This document shows positions 8,115 to 45,103 of a DNA stretch of 51,819 bases, piece by piece. The first letter of the stretch is position 1, and every line of letters begins with the position of its first letter. The position numbers and the translations under genes are program-made. The stretch is from a virus, in the IMG/VR virus record IMGVR_UViG_3300009285_002730, positions 1-51,819 of that record; one strand, written 5' to 3'. Under the pieces are notes generated by a model. It was given only the letters and a program-made list of their open reading frames with translations. It did no database searches and was not told where the DNA came from.

Positions 8115-8175
8115 TGGCAGGGCTGTGTGCGAGTGGCAGATTTACTGTGTATCTGTAAAACCCTATATCTCCTTT

Positions 8176-8209
8176 AAAGTTAGACTAAAGGGGAAAATAG
8201 TCTAACTTT
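8176..8209 (-). promoter_or_regulatory. Perfect 12-bp hairpin in the 5' leader of the CHAP gene
   Basis: On the minus strand AAAGTTAGACTA and TAGTCTAACTTT pair perfectly (8198-8209 with 8176-8187; loop ttttcccctt), and AAAGGAG follows at once. The leader from the promoter at 8229-8257 to the ATG at 8114 is about 110 bases. No start codon sits at proper distance from that AAAGGAG, so the hairpin is probably a regulatory or stability element. Confidence 0.6.
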
Positions 8210-8228
8210 CAAAAGAAATAACGCTTTT

Positions 8229-8257
8229 ATTTTACACGAAATCGTGTAATTTGTCAA
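8229..8257 (-). promoter_or_regulatory. Leftward promoter with perfect palindromic operator in the spacer
   Basis: Minus strand -35 TTGACA (8252-8257), 17-base spacer and -10 TAAAAT (8229-8234). The spacer is occupied by the perfect dyad TTACACGAAATCGTGTAA (8232-8249), an obvious repressor site. It controls the CHAP gene at 7656-8114. The dyad differs from that at 14057-14075, so a different repressor is implied. Confidence 0.7.
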
Positions 8258-8276
8258 GACTCCACCCCAAACCAAA

Positions 8277-8300
8277 AGCCCCCGTCTTTCAACAAGGGCT
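8277..8300 (-). terminator. Possible weak terminator after the membrane-protein gene
   Basis: On the minus strand AGCCC and GGGCT pair (8296-8300 with 8277-8281) with a 14-base loop, followed by TTTGG. The stem is short and the T tract poor. Its place between the gene at 8345-8569 and the next promoter is the main support. Confidence 0.35.
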
Positions 8301-8344
8301 AATTGGCGGAGATGAAACTCAAAAAGAGTACATCTGCAAAAATC

Positions 8345-8569
8345 CTACTTCTTTCCACGAATTGAGTCAACCCTCTTAATCTGTACGGCTAACTTCTCGT
8401 CTCTCTTTGCAGTCGTATCACCCACAATCAGATAGTAAATCACCGCAAAAATGCCGAAGATAATTCCCGCAATCAAGCCGAGAGTCTTGTCTCTGCCCCG
8501 CTTCTCTGCCATATACATACAGATTAAAGCAAGGGCGACCCAAATTCCGAGAGTCGTTATAGCTTCCAT
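8345..8569 (-). CDS. Small membrane protein with two transmembrane segments (74 aa)
   Basis: Two hydrophobic spans are visible: TLGIWVALALICMYMA (residues 5-20) and TLGLIAGIIFGIFAVIYYLI (residues 29-48). They are separated by the charged turn EKRGRDK and followed by a basic cytoplasmic tail (KRVDSIRGKK). It could be a holin, antiholin or superinfection-exclusion protein. The position beside the CHAP enzyme favours an envelope role. It sits directly after the 24-aa membrane peptide gene. Confidence 0.65.
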   Translation of the reverse strand: MEAITTLGIWVALALICMYMAEKRGRDKTLGLIAGIIFGIFAVIYYLIVGDTTAKRDEKLAVQIKRVDSIRGKK

Positions 8570-12522: not shown

Positions 12523-12882
12523 TTACGCCTCATATCTTTTAATTATCTCTTTTAATTCAATCTCTTTGCTTAATTCTTCGGCTCTCTCAATAATCTCATC
12601 TGCTCCTTTTTCCAACTCCTTGCGATAATCAAAATCCGATACACTCTCAAGATTTCCATACCCATTAAAACGGATATACTCATCATTCCAGCTTTTCAAA
12701 TCACCGAAAAAGGTAGCCCTTACCGCTTCAGAGGGATTGTCTGCAAAATAGTTGTTGAAAAAGTCATCATCAAACTCGTGTACTTCGTAGCTTTCCAAAC
12801 TTCCGTCTTGAGAATTGACCGAGCTTACAACTTCTCGCAAAAACTCGGTATTGTCTTTTAATTCTTCTAATTCTTTTTTCAT
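12523..12882 (-). CDS. Hypothetical phage protein (119 aa)
   Basis: Acidic: MKKELEELKDNTEFLREVVS, then YEVHEFDDDFFNNYFADNPS, FGDLKSWNDEYIRFNGYGNL and a long C-terminal helix (ADEIIERAEELSKEIELKEI). The middle (PSEAVRA, DEYIRFNGYGNLES) resembles small phage proteins of unknown function that I have seen elsewhere. It lies directly downstream of the large RNA candidate, with GGAGATG at its start. Confidence 0.6.
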   Translation of the reverse strand: MKKELEELKDNTEFLREVVSSVNSQDGSLESYEVHEFDDDFFNNYFADNPSEAVRATFFGDLKSWNDEYIRFNGYGNLESVSDFDYRKELEKGADEIIERAEELSKEIELKEIIKRYEA

Positions 12883-12904
12883 CTCTTCATCTCCATTTAT
12901 TTAA

Positions 12905-13398
12905 TTTATAAAAGGGCTTAACAAGCGAGTAAATCCCCGTAAAACTCGCCTGTTATCCTTCGTAGTATCTTGTAAAATTGCTCGCAAGAGAAATTGCGTG
13001 AGCAGACTATTCCTGCCGTGTCAAGCCCTCGGCTAGCATTTTCAGGGTTTTAACTCGATTATTCAGCAAGGGGATTTTTCATTTCTGTACAGCCGATCAT
13101 CGAGCGTATAAATTCGGTTTGTTTGCAGGTTTCCGGCGTTTTTTAATTTTTGCCTTGTTTTATCCTCAAACAAACTGATTTTTCTTTTGACTAGCGTTGC
13201 TTACTTAACAGGTGAAGTTTAAGCCAACCCGTGAATCGTTGACCGCTAGAAGTCGGGGCGTGTTTTATCGCCTACCAGTTCGCCACTTCAACCCCTTGCG
13301 AGGCGGACAGACGCTTTATATTCTGTCGTTCAAACTTTGGCTGACGGAAGACTTTAATGCGTTCCGTTTTGTGCAACCCCGATTTTTCAATGTTCTAT
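12905..13398 (-). ncRNA. Large, multi-helix structured non-coding RNA candidate (about 490 nt)
   Basis: No convincing gene lies in this stretch on either strand, yet it has its own promoter (13405-13433). Read leftward, the RNA can form ACGGAA/TTCCGT (13362-13367 with 13344-13349), CTGTC/GACAG (13323-13327 with 13306-13310), CGCCT/AGGCG (13301-13305 with 13269-13273), an 8-bp long-range pairing (13330-13337 with 13215-13222), a perfect 9-bp helix GTTTGTTTG/CAAACAAAC (13167-13175 with 13117-13125) extended by AGG/CCT and GGC/GCC, CTCGAT/ATCGAG (13099-13104 with 13054-13059), a hairpin at 12979-13004, and a 10-bp closing helix (13019-13028 with 12914-12923) followed by TTTTAT. Size and phage context recall the ornate large RNAs (ROOL, GOLLD, ARRPOF), but membership is unproven. 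Confidence 0.65.
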
Positions 13399-13404
13399 GT
13401 TCTT

Positions 13405-13433
13405 ATACTAACACAATATAATAGTTTTGTCAA
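13405..13433 (-). promoter_or_regulatory. Leftward promoter of the large RNA candidate
   Basis: Minus strand -35 TTGACA (13428-13433), 17-base spacer, -10 TAGTAT (13405-13410). It lies immediately after the stop of the gene at 13435-13692 and 520 bases from the next start codon, so its main product must be the untranslated region. Confidence 0.65.
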
Positions 13434-13434
13434 G

Positions 13435-13692
13435 CTATTTGCCAAACTCTTTCAAGCAATAATCCGATTGTATCAAAACAGCTTCATAACTGTTGCCACT
13501 TCTTACAACCTCCAAACATCGCTCAGCTTTGGCTCTCCGTGCTTTTATCGCCAACTCATCGGCTCTTTTAATGTTTACAAACCCGATGTAGCACAACAAA
13601 CCTAAAACTAAAACCATTAACCCGATCATCGCCAATCGCTCGCTAATAATGGTCGAGTGTTCCGGCTTGCAGCTTTTTTCGTAGTTTTTCAT
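13435..13692 (-). CDS. Single-pass membrane protein (85 aa)
   Basis: A basic N-terminus (KNYEKSCKPEHSTIISERLA) precedes one clear transmembrane helix, MIGLMVLVLGLLCYIGFVNI (residues 22-41). A soluble tail with KARRAKAERCLEVVRSGNSY and two further Cys follows. It is the second gene behind the main leftward promoter, so it is expressed very early and could be a superinfection-exclusion or envelope-associated protein. AAGGAG precedes the ATG. Confidence 0.65.
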   Translation of the reverse strand: MKNYEKSCKPEHSTIISERLAMIGLMVLVLGLLCYIGFVNIKRADELAIKARRAKAERCLEVVRSGNSYEAVLIQSDYCLKEFGK

Positions 13693-14003: not shown

Positions 14004-14054
14004 CTTGTGTCCTTGTTGCCTTGCCCTAATTGTCAAATAACTGATACTGCATAA

Positions 14055-14082
14055 AGTATATCATACTATGATATACTGTCAA
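14055..14082 (-). promoter_or_regulatory. Main leftward (early) promoter with 19-bp palindromic operator
   Basis: Minus strand -35 TTGACA (14077-14082), 16-base spacer, -10 TATACT (14055-14060). The perfect dyad TATATCATACTATGATATA (14057-14075) fills the spacer and touches the -10, an arrangement expected for a repressor-controlled promoter. It heads the leftward early region. Confidence 0.8.
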
Positions 14083-14099
14083 TAGGGAACATAACCCGA

Positions 14100-14397
14100 A
14101 CAGGATAGTATAACATCTAATATAACAATACTTGACCATTGAACCCTGAAATCGCCAAGAAAAAAGATTTTTATAGTTCAATATATATTATATATAGCTA
14201 GTTATAAGCTACTGTATGCTGTATGTAGTAGTATAGGGTATAGTATGGTCTTTTACAGATATCTTGAGTCTCTTATAAGGGTATTGAATAGGATATAATG
14301 AATGACGCTAAATTCACGGAGGGGGAGGGGGGAAGAAAAGTGAGGGGGGGGGTGTTCTCTCAATATGTACTATATTTCCAACTATGTAGCACATTGA
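14100..14397. other. Non-coding control region: AT-rich tract plus G-rich tract (possible replication origin)
   Basis: Between the divergent promoters, 14170-14300 is very AT-rich with repeated GTAT/TATA words. Positions 14320-14353 hold GGAGGGGGAGGGGGG and then a run of nine G, enough for a G-quadruplex on the top strand. A copy of TATGTAGCAC follows at 14383-14392. No gene is evident. An AT-rich, repeat-bearing gap between divergent operons is where a phage origin is often found, but no clear iterons could be defined. Confidence 0.4.
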
Positions 14398-14474
14398 ATT
14401 AACAGGAGAGAGATAACCGATAAAACGGGATTTTAGGGCTTGGGCTTGACATTATGTAGCACAATGGTACTAAT
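14398..14474 (+). repeat. 77-bp tandem repeat, copy 1, containing a rightward promoter
   Basis: Identical base for base to 14475-14551. Inside are -35 TTGACA (14446-14451), a 16-base spacer and -10 TACTAA (14468-14473) preceded by TGG (extended -10). The spacer carries TATGTAGCAC (14453-14462). Confidence 0.85.
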
Positions 14475-14551
14475 ATTAACAGGAGAGAGATAACCGATAA
14501 AACGGGATTTTAGGGCTTGGGCTTGACATTATGTAGCACAATGGTACTAAT
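14475..14551 (+). repeat. 77-bp tandem repeat, copy 2, containing a second rightward promoter
   Basis: Second perfect copy: -35 at 14523-14528, -10 at 14545-14550, TATGTAGCAC at 14530-14539. The duplicated promoters point at the packaging, head and tail genes, and a degenerate remnant of a third unit lies just upstream (ACTATGTAGCACATTGAATT). Confidence 0.85.
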
Positions 14552-14630
14552 AGAGTATGCAAAGATATAGCACCGATTTGGCCTTTCAGTTTATATGGTG
14601 GATTATTATCATAGCGGGGATATTAATGTT

Positions 14631-43746: not shown

Positions 43747-44261
43747 ACCATATCCTTGTCTGCTCTGACTACTTTTTTATACGGGTACAGACCACGAGGC
43801 TTGTTGGGGGTCATTTCACAGGTGATATTTTCTTTAGTATGTGCAATTTGCTTGATATGCCAAAATCCTTTCAGATAACCGTGTAAATCTATTCCATTGG
43901 AGGGAACGTGGAAAAATCCGAAGGTATCAGGAACAAAGAATCTTTTGTGGTCAGGGTGGATAAGAGACGCTTTGCCTGGAAAATTAGGGACATCTATCCG
44001 TAAAATGCCTTTGGGTTTGAGGACTCTGAAACATTCATCTACGCAGAATAAAAATCCATCTCCTAAATGTTCAAAAATATGGCTAGCGTCTATCCTGTCG
44101 ATTGAATCGTTTTCAAATGGTAAATGGTCTTTTTCAATATCCAAGACATAATCGACACACTTGAAAGGTCTTATATCAATTCCTATTGCGTTTTTCTGTT
44201 TGTGAAAAGCACAACCGAGAACAACTACTTTCTTTTTATTTGTTAATATAGTCGTTTTCAT
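43743..44261 (-). CDS. Class I SAM-dependent methyltransferase
   Basis: 172 aa from the ATG at 44261, which follows GAGGAAAT and overlaps the upstream stop (ATGA). KKKVVVLGCAFHKQKNAIGI, DYVLDIEKDHLPFENDSIDR, IDASHIFEHLGDGFLFCVDE and RVLKPKGILRIDVPNFPG are the Methyltransf_11 motifs, with a shortened motif I. It belongs to the sugar cluster by overlap on both sides. Confidence 0.75.
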   Translation of the reverse strand: MKTTILTNKKKVVVLGCAFHKQKNAIGIDIRPFKCVDYVLDIEKDHLPFENDSIDRIDASHIFEHLGDGFLFCVDECFRVLKPKGILRIDVPNFPGKASLIHPDHKRFFVPDTFGFFHVPSNGIDLHGYLKGFWHIKQIAHTKENITCEMTPNKPRGLYPYKKVVRADKDMV

Positions 44262-45103
44262 ATTTCCTCTATAAAACCATCGTATTGTCCCCAATCCCTT
44301 CCCTTATTGGCGACAATAAATTCTTTTTTATATGAACCTTCATCACCTTTTTTAGCATTCATTAAATCTTCGTTTGGTTTCCACGAGTCCTGTATCCATT
44401 GAGGCGGTCTATCATGCCACTGATGAATAACTGAGAAGGGTGCTTGGATAGCATTGACTCCGCTCTCTCTCAATCGTGTTATCAGGTCAACGTCATCGAA
44501 TCCCCACCTACCATTACCGTTCTTACCAGACATCATCTCATCCCAGCCCCCAATAGCTAGGAGGTCTGCCCTCCGCACTATTAGGGACCAGGGTGAAACC
44601 ATGTTCGCTTTCGTGTAAGTCGGTTCTCCGCCATGAACATCAACCGTTCCAGATTCCCAAACATTAACTCCGTATTCTCTGATGTATTCCAATGGGTCTT
44701 TTATTCTTTCCTCTGGAAAAGGAGACGATCCTTGTTTGCCGAAATAAACCCACTCTTGATAACCATAATGTTTTTCAGGTAAAGTTTTGGCAATTTCGAT
44801 TATGTCTTCAATAAAAATATTCTCTGGCTCTGTGTAAATTAAAATATCTCCACGAGAGTTTTTAAGACCTATGTTTTTGGGGATTGAGCAAGAATCCCAG
44901 TCTGGATTGTTGTGTCTGATGTATTGGATTTTGCCTTTTAAAAAATCTAGGCTTTTCAGCATATCGGGGACTTCGTGTTGGTTGTGAGTCCCATCATCAA
45001 CTATGGTAATAAAGTCTGGTTGAGTAATATACTGAAATCTTAAAAGATTTTTTCTTAGAAGTTCTGTTCTATTGAATACGCTAATTATTAATTCCGTGGT
45101 CAT
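44258..45103 (-). CDS. Glycosyltransferase, family 2
   Basis: 281 aa. ELIISVFNRTELLRKNLLRF, DFITIVDDGTHNQHEVPDML, then ILIYTEPENIFIEDIIEIAK in place of DxD, and SLIVRRADLLAIGGWDEMMS with RWGFDDVDLITRLRESGVNA and HQWHDRPPQW. The HQ.HDRPPQ block is shared with the gene at 42994-43746, so the two are probably paralogues acting on related acceptors. Confidence 0.83.
   Translation of the reverse strand: MTTELIISVFNRTELLRKNLLRFQYITQPDFITIVDDGTHNQHEVPDMLKSLDFLKGKIQYIRHNNPDWDSCSIPKNIGLKNSRGDILIYTEPENIFIEDIIEIAKTLPEKHYGYQEWVYFGKQGSSPFPEERIKDPLEYIREYGVNVWESGTVDVHGGEPTYTKANMVSPWSLIVRRADLLAIGGWDEMMSGKNGNGRWGFDDVDLITRLRESGVNAIQAPFSVIHQWHDRPPQWIQDSWKPNEDLMNAKKGDEGSYKKEFIVANKGRDWGQYDGFIEEI

Follow-up and report, generated by a model that had tools for sequence, protein, structure and literature searches.

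What is encoded by the 552 nt between positions 12883 and 13434 of an uncultured tailed-phage contig, the longest gap between its leftward early genes (next internal gap: 333)? The contig is IMG/VR record IMGVR_UViG_3300009285_002730, and all of its 51,819 bases form the window analyzed here. Rightward from 15.2 kb lie the genes for the terminase subunits, the portal, the protease, and the major head, tail and tape-measure proteins. A clamp loader and a replication-protein-O homologue are among the products of the leftward genes, which extend from 14.0 kb down to ~0.5 kb, and this block looks like the early region. The gap and its two neighbors are arranged as follows.

13435–13692, minus strand: upstream early gene, 85 aa by translation, no family match
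12911–13398, minus strand: predicted untranslated transcript or leader of ~490 nt, without coding signal
12523–12882, minus strand: downstream early gene of the phrog_4534 family (function unknown), the first gene of a 4.5-kb operon

The 85-aa protein has a hydrophobic stretch resembling a membrane segment, and the operon headed by the phrog_4534 gene lacks a strong promoter of its own. Relatives of phrog_4534 occur in SPO1-like Bacillus phages, in some of them within the terminal repeats, and in Staphylococcus phages, which may be taken as a hint of a Gram-positive host.

By ORF, codon-usage and PHROG tests, the gap is non-coding. Its longest ORFs measure 28–36 codons on the minus strand and 69–82 on the plus strand. 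Scored with the phage's own codon usage, the gap ORFs reached −0.19 to −0.01 per codon vs +0.01 to +0.28 for true coding sequences, and a PHROG search with them gave no convincing match. With negative scores in all frames, the claim of the initial annotation that neither strand holds a convincing gene was borne out. A pseudogene was rejected as well, as a coding remnant was absent in every frame by codon usage and PHROG search. The G+C content of 12911–13398 is 43%, compared with an early-window mean of 37% (top 3.5%) and with 36% in the other long intergenic region (14040–14590).

Upstream of the non-coding stretch, two sequence elements were predicted.

13405–13433, minus strand: early sigma-70-type promoter, TTGACA-17-TAGTAT with a TG extension
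13431–13448, minus strand: putative upstream element of the promoter, AGTTTGGCAAATAGCTTG, which overlaps the −35 and is common to two promoters of phage Alsa_1

The case for a strong leftward early promoter at 13433–13405 is convincing at the level of sequence. The −35 (TTGACA, 13433–13428), which abuts the stop codon of the 85-aa gene, and the −10 (TAGTAT, 13410–13405, with TG before it) are separated by a 17-nt spacer, and transcription is predicted to start near 13398. Only 0.35% of 2000 dinucleotide shuffles of the region equalled or beat its score, in agreement with the good promoter noted initially. It is one of the six best sites in the whole window (4276, 14082, 6745, 8257, 13433 and 7646), all of which lie on the minus strand in the early region, spanning 4.2–14.1 kb; no plus-strand site equals them in this ranking over the window. 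The leaders downstream of the other five are ~0–108 nt long vs ~516 nt for the promoter at 13433. From ~12.9 to 8.3 kb, the minus strand contains no promoter scoring at least 10, and the next strong one is that at 8257. Allowing one or two changes, the element AGTTTGGCAAATAGCTTG is also present at two promoters in the Twort-like phage Alsa_1 (BLAST E ~0.01), one of which precedes a region holding only tiny annotated ORFs; this likeness is suggestive only.

An own promoter, the absence of ORFs, the raised G+C and a terminator-like end (see below), together with the recurrence of AGTTTGGCAAATAGCTTG beside a non-coding region of Alsa_1, would fit a large structured RNA that stands alone and acts in trans, either an ornate-like particle or an abundant early lncRNA such as those of phage K; the 3′ domain would then be its terminator. 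There is a precedent in the Staphylococcus phage K, which produces a pair of long non-coding RNAs; the one of higher abundance is made from its own early promoter (PMC9241854). However, outside the 3′ domain both the helix count and the folding energy of the stretch are near chance. The z-scores of the whole RNA were −1.66, −1.84 and −1.96 in three runs against shuffles, and about −1.5 to −1.8 once the 3′ hairpin was left out. Controls treated by the same method gave −2.7 for E. coli rnpB, −1.5 for ssrA (tmRNA), −5.1 and −1.9 for the phage K lncRNAs, and −4.6 to +0.4 for coding segments of the contig's own phage. Because the tmRNA scores alike and coding segments reach −4.6, folding energy is indecisive for or against a structured RNA. 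Perfect stems of at least 7 bp numbered 7, compared with 6.8 ± 3.1 in shuffles, and A-enrichment at unpaired positions and ensemble entropy, tested as signs of structure, were the same as in shuffles. The helices found by eye outside the 3′ domain are no more than expected by chance. The initial annotation had listed at least eight mutually compatible helices, yet such a set exists in almost any sequence of this length; the perfect 9-bp helix it had singled out is equally unremarkable, as 36% of shuffles contain a stem of at least 9 bp. What the case mainly shows is that counting helices by eye in 500 nt yields no evidence for an ornate RNA.

The 3′ end of the predicted transcript behaves differently from this background.

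12912–13030, minus strand: predicted 3′-terminal RNA domain (MFE −37.2; z −3.2, with 0/300 shuffles as stable, both computed on the 128-nt segment 12905–13032)
12913–12961, minus strand: predicted terminator-like hairpin, an alternative longer form whose UGUU competes with the closing helix

According to the folding models, the domain 12912–13030 is structured beyond chance. It would be closed by a 12-bp helix pairing 13030–13019 with 12923–12912, followed by UUUUAU, and would enclose hairpins at 13017–13001, 12998–12983 and 12950–12924. This helix most likely corresponds to the 10-bp closing helix followed by T residues of the initial annotation, which we consider real: the best upstream partner of the downstream arm beats 99.7% of shuffles (p = 0.003). 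In the full-length fold, the closing helix has a probability of 3% and other pairings are preferred. Folding of 12905–12965 gave z −4.2 (1/300 shuffles) and, in a second run, z −4.5 (0/200). Two inverted repeats compete with the arms of the hairpin, 12913–12932/13010–13029 (p = 0.003) and 12940–12955/13206–13221 (upstream pairing of the other arm, p = 0.5). The U-run after the closing helix is short, and a standard terminator scan made no call at the 3′ domain.

A non-coding stretch with several long inverted repeats might instead be an element of the DNA, such as a replication origin or a packaging site. We regard this as highly improbable, since iterons and a direct-repeat array are absent, the replication-protein-O-like gene is 7 kb distant, and the 77-bp tandem repeats beside the terminase genes at 14.4–14.55 kb are the better packaging candidate.

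Searches against known RNA families bear again on an RNA acting in trans. With cmscan, none of 4227 Rfam families matched at gathering thresholds and nothing relevant over the region appeared up to E = 10; the same program detected tRNAs and the Pistol ribozyme in fetched loci. The contig did not match the ROOL model (RF03087), in a run without positive control in which no genome matched, nor the GOLLD model (RF02032) up to E = 10. The Rfam check proposed at the outset was thus run for ROOL and GOLLD and across the 4227 families, and gave nothing relevant up to E = 10. ARAGORN at default settings found no tRNA in the 51.8-kb window. A short segment, GAAGTGGCGAACTGGTAGGCG (13289–13269, minus strand), presumably resembles the 5′ part of bacterial tRNA-Leu. 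As a tRNA it was rejected: the Rfam tRNA model was silent, default ARAGORN reported nothing and relaxed ARAGORN only weak unrelated folds. Matches of 16-mers in viral contigs looked unrelated, the one that was checked (L049) falling inside a gene, and a tmRNA call at relaxed cut-off was spurious.

The stretch shares the size class (model of 574 positions), phage location and absence of ORFs with ROOL, which often lies near a tRNA island (PMC12286853), but differs in lacking a covariance-model match and any tRNA in the window. The likeness to GOLLD is that of a large phage RNA; here, too, model match and nearby tRNA are missing, and the stretch is much shorter than many GOLLD RNAs, which exceed 800 nt (PMC12286853). 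Like the phage K lncRNAs it would be a long non-coding, intergenic transcript, with an early promoter of its own as for one of those two. Nevertheless, it has no sequence similarity to them, the phage K RNAs adjoin tRNA genes, and the more stable of them (z −5.1) folds far beyond chance, unlike the whole RNA considered here. An ornate RNA of the ROOL, GOLLD or ARRPOF kind is accordingly unsupported, with no match among the 4227 Rfam families, helix number and energy near chance, and none of the tRNA neighbors usual for ROOL and GOLLD. From the initial picture of a large non-coding RNA with its own promoter, the non-coding character, the leftward promoter and one 3′ domain are retained and the large multi-helix structure is not.

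Homologues of the RNA were not found in any of the collections searched. BLASTN (word 11) against 50,697 phages recovered only the promoter region (E ~0.01), plasmid records gave chance matches only, and eight viral-contig scans yielded no homologue. Searching 29 related records directly returned nothing beyond the copy in the window and words at chance level, and a single-sequence covariance model of the 3′ domain, run over 738 kb of fetched loci, detected only its source. Relatives were also sought with the downstream gene, the terminase and the portal as queries, with a terminase profile of four members, and with DNA words 16 and 21 bases long; none of the phages that turned up carries the RNA. 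The nearest of them have terminases 54–61% identical (L002, L003, L004, L011 and L012). L011 (59%), the nearest collinear relative, has densely packed genes at the expected place of the RNA, and in L002 the first 1.5 kb contain genes and no comparable gap.

Given that Rfam family, homologue and nearby tRNAs were all absent in the searches made, we consider a free-standing RNA acting in trans unlikely. More specifically, a lineage-restricted new class of ~490-nt structured early phage RNA with a branched 3′ domain, possibly abundant and trans-acting or multimeric, appears doubtful. The closely packed early region of L011 without an equivalent stretch, the near-chance structure and the lack of homologues would be consistent with a decayed or foreign insert, in which the operon promoter is followed by ~400 nt of former gene or spacer and the structure is not under selection. 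Against such an insert stand the absence of a coding remnant in any frame, a G+C above that of both early coding DNA and 14040–14590, and a 3′ domain beyond chance, and we judge it unlikely.

The reading we prefer, at about an even chance, is that of a ~490-nt untranslated leader or non-coding transcript, made from the early promoter and ending in a 3′ domain that serves as terminator or attenuator before the operon. Host RNA polymerase would initiate at ~13398 and proceed leftward, and the first ~490 nt of the early leftward transcription unit would stay untranslated. The RNA would close in a compact branched domain, with the 12-bp helix and U residues lying ~15 nt ahead of the phrog_4534 ribosome-binding site. 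If the domain acts as a partial terminator, most transcripts may end at this point, building up a ~485-nt non-coding RNA, and read-through would supply, by regulation in cis, an operon of roughly 14 genes from 12882 to ~8345. Some 14 downstream genes would depend on this read-through because no strong minus-strand promoter follows until 8257. In favor of the leader, we counted a promoter of the same kind as five others, the longest leader among them, the lack of coding signal and a U-tailed 3′ domain (z −3.2); the model also accounts for the raised G+C. Counted against it were the short U-run, the missing standard terminator call and the 3% probability of the closing helix in the full-length fold, as well as L011: since it has no such leader, the leader appears dispensable in that lineage. 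Attenuators and terminator-bearing leaders of early operons would be alike in promoter, long untranslated leader and a predicted stem domain with a short U-tail before the first gene. They differ in that Rfam recognized no ligand-binding or peptide-coding element in the stretch, and the antiterminator consists here of candidate pairings only. If transcribed and stable, the RNA would join those of phage K as an early phage lncRNA without relatives, and could be used to test whether phages meter early operons by long untranslated leaders.

Additionally, several other repeats and folded sites were observed. In Alsa_1 (Staphylococcus phage, L047), the segment 2560–2900 lies downstream of a DUF2828/DUF7788 (von Willebrand-type) protein that carries an RNA-binding annotation. 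It holds a promoter and, after it, three imperfect repeats of a unit resembling a hairpin (GACCCATACAGC...ATAGGGGTC); they could represent a repeated non-coding RNA, for which Rfam gave no match. At 14399–14555 of the contig itself, inspection by eye showed a ~77-nt unit (AGTACCATTGTGCTACATAATGTCAAGCCC...) twice in tandem, plus a partial third copy; the site is intergenic, between the leftward and rightward gene blocks close to the terminase genes, and is a candidate packaging site or regulatory region. A 120-nt folding scan covering most of the window gave its strongest single minus-strand signal at 44221–44640 (z −6.7 at 44521 and −5.6 at 44221), inside a glycosyltransferase/methyltransferase cluster. 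Very strong folding (z −6.8) was also found on the minus strand of the intergenic region 8115–8345, which consists, in this order, of a terminator-like hairpin, the promoter TTGACA-17-TAAAAT at 8257 and a hairpin GTTAGACTA...TAGTCTAAC. In the spacer of this promoter, TTACACGA-TT-TCGTGTAA forms a perfect inverted repeat that might be the operator of a repressor.
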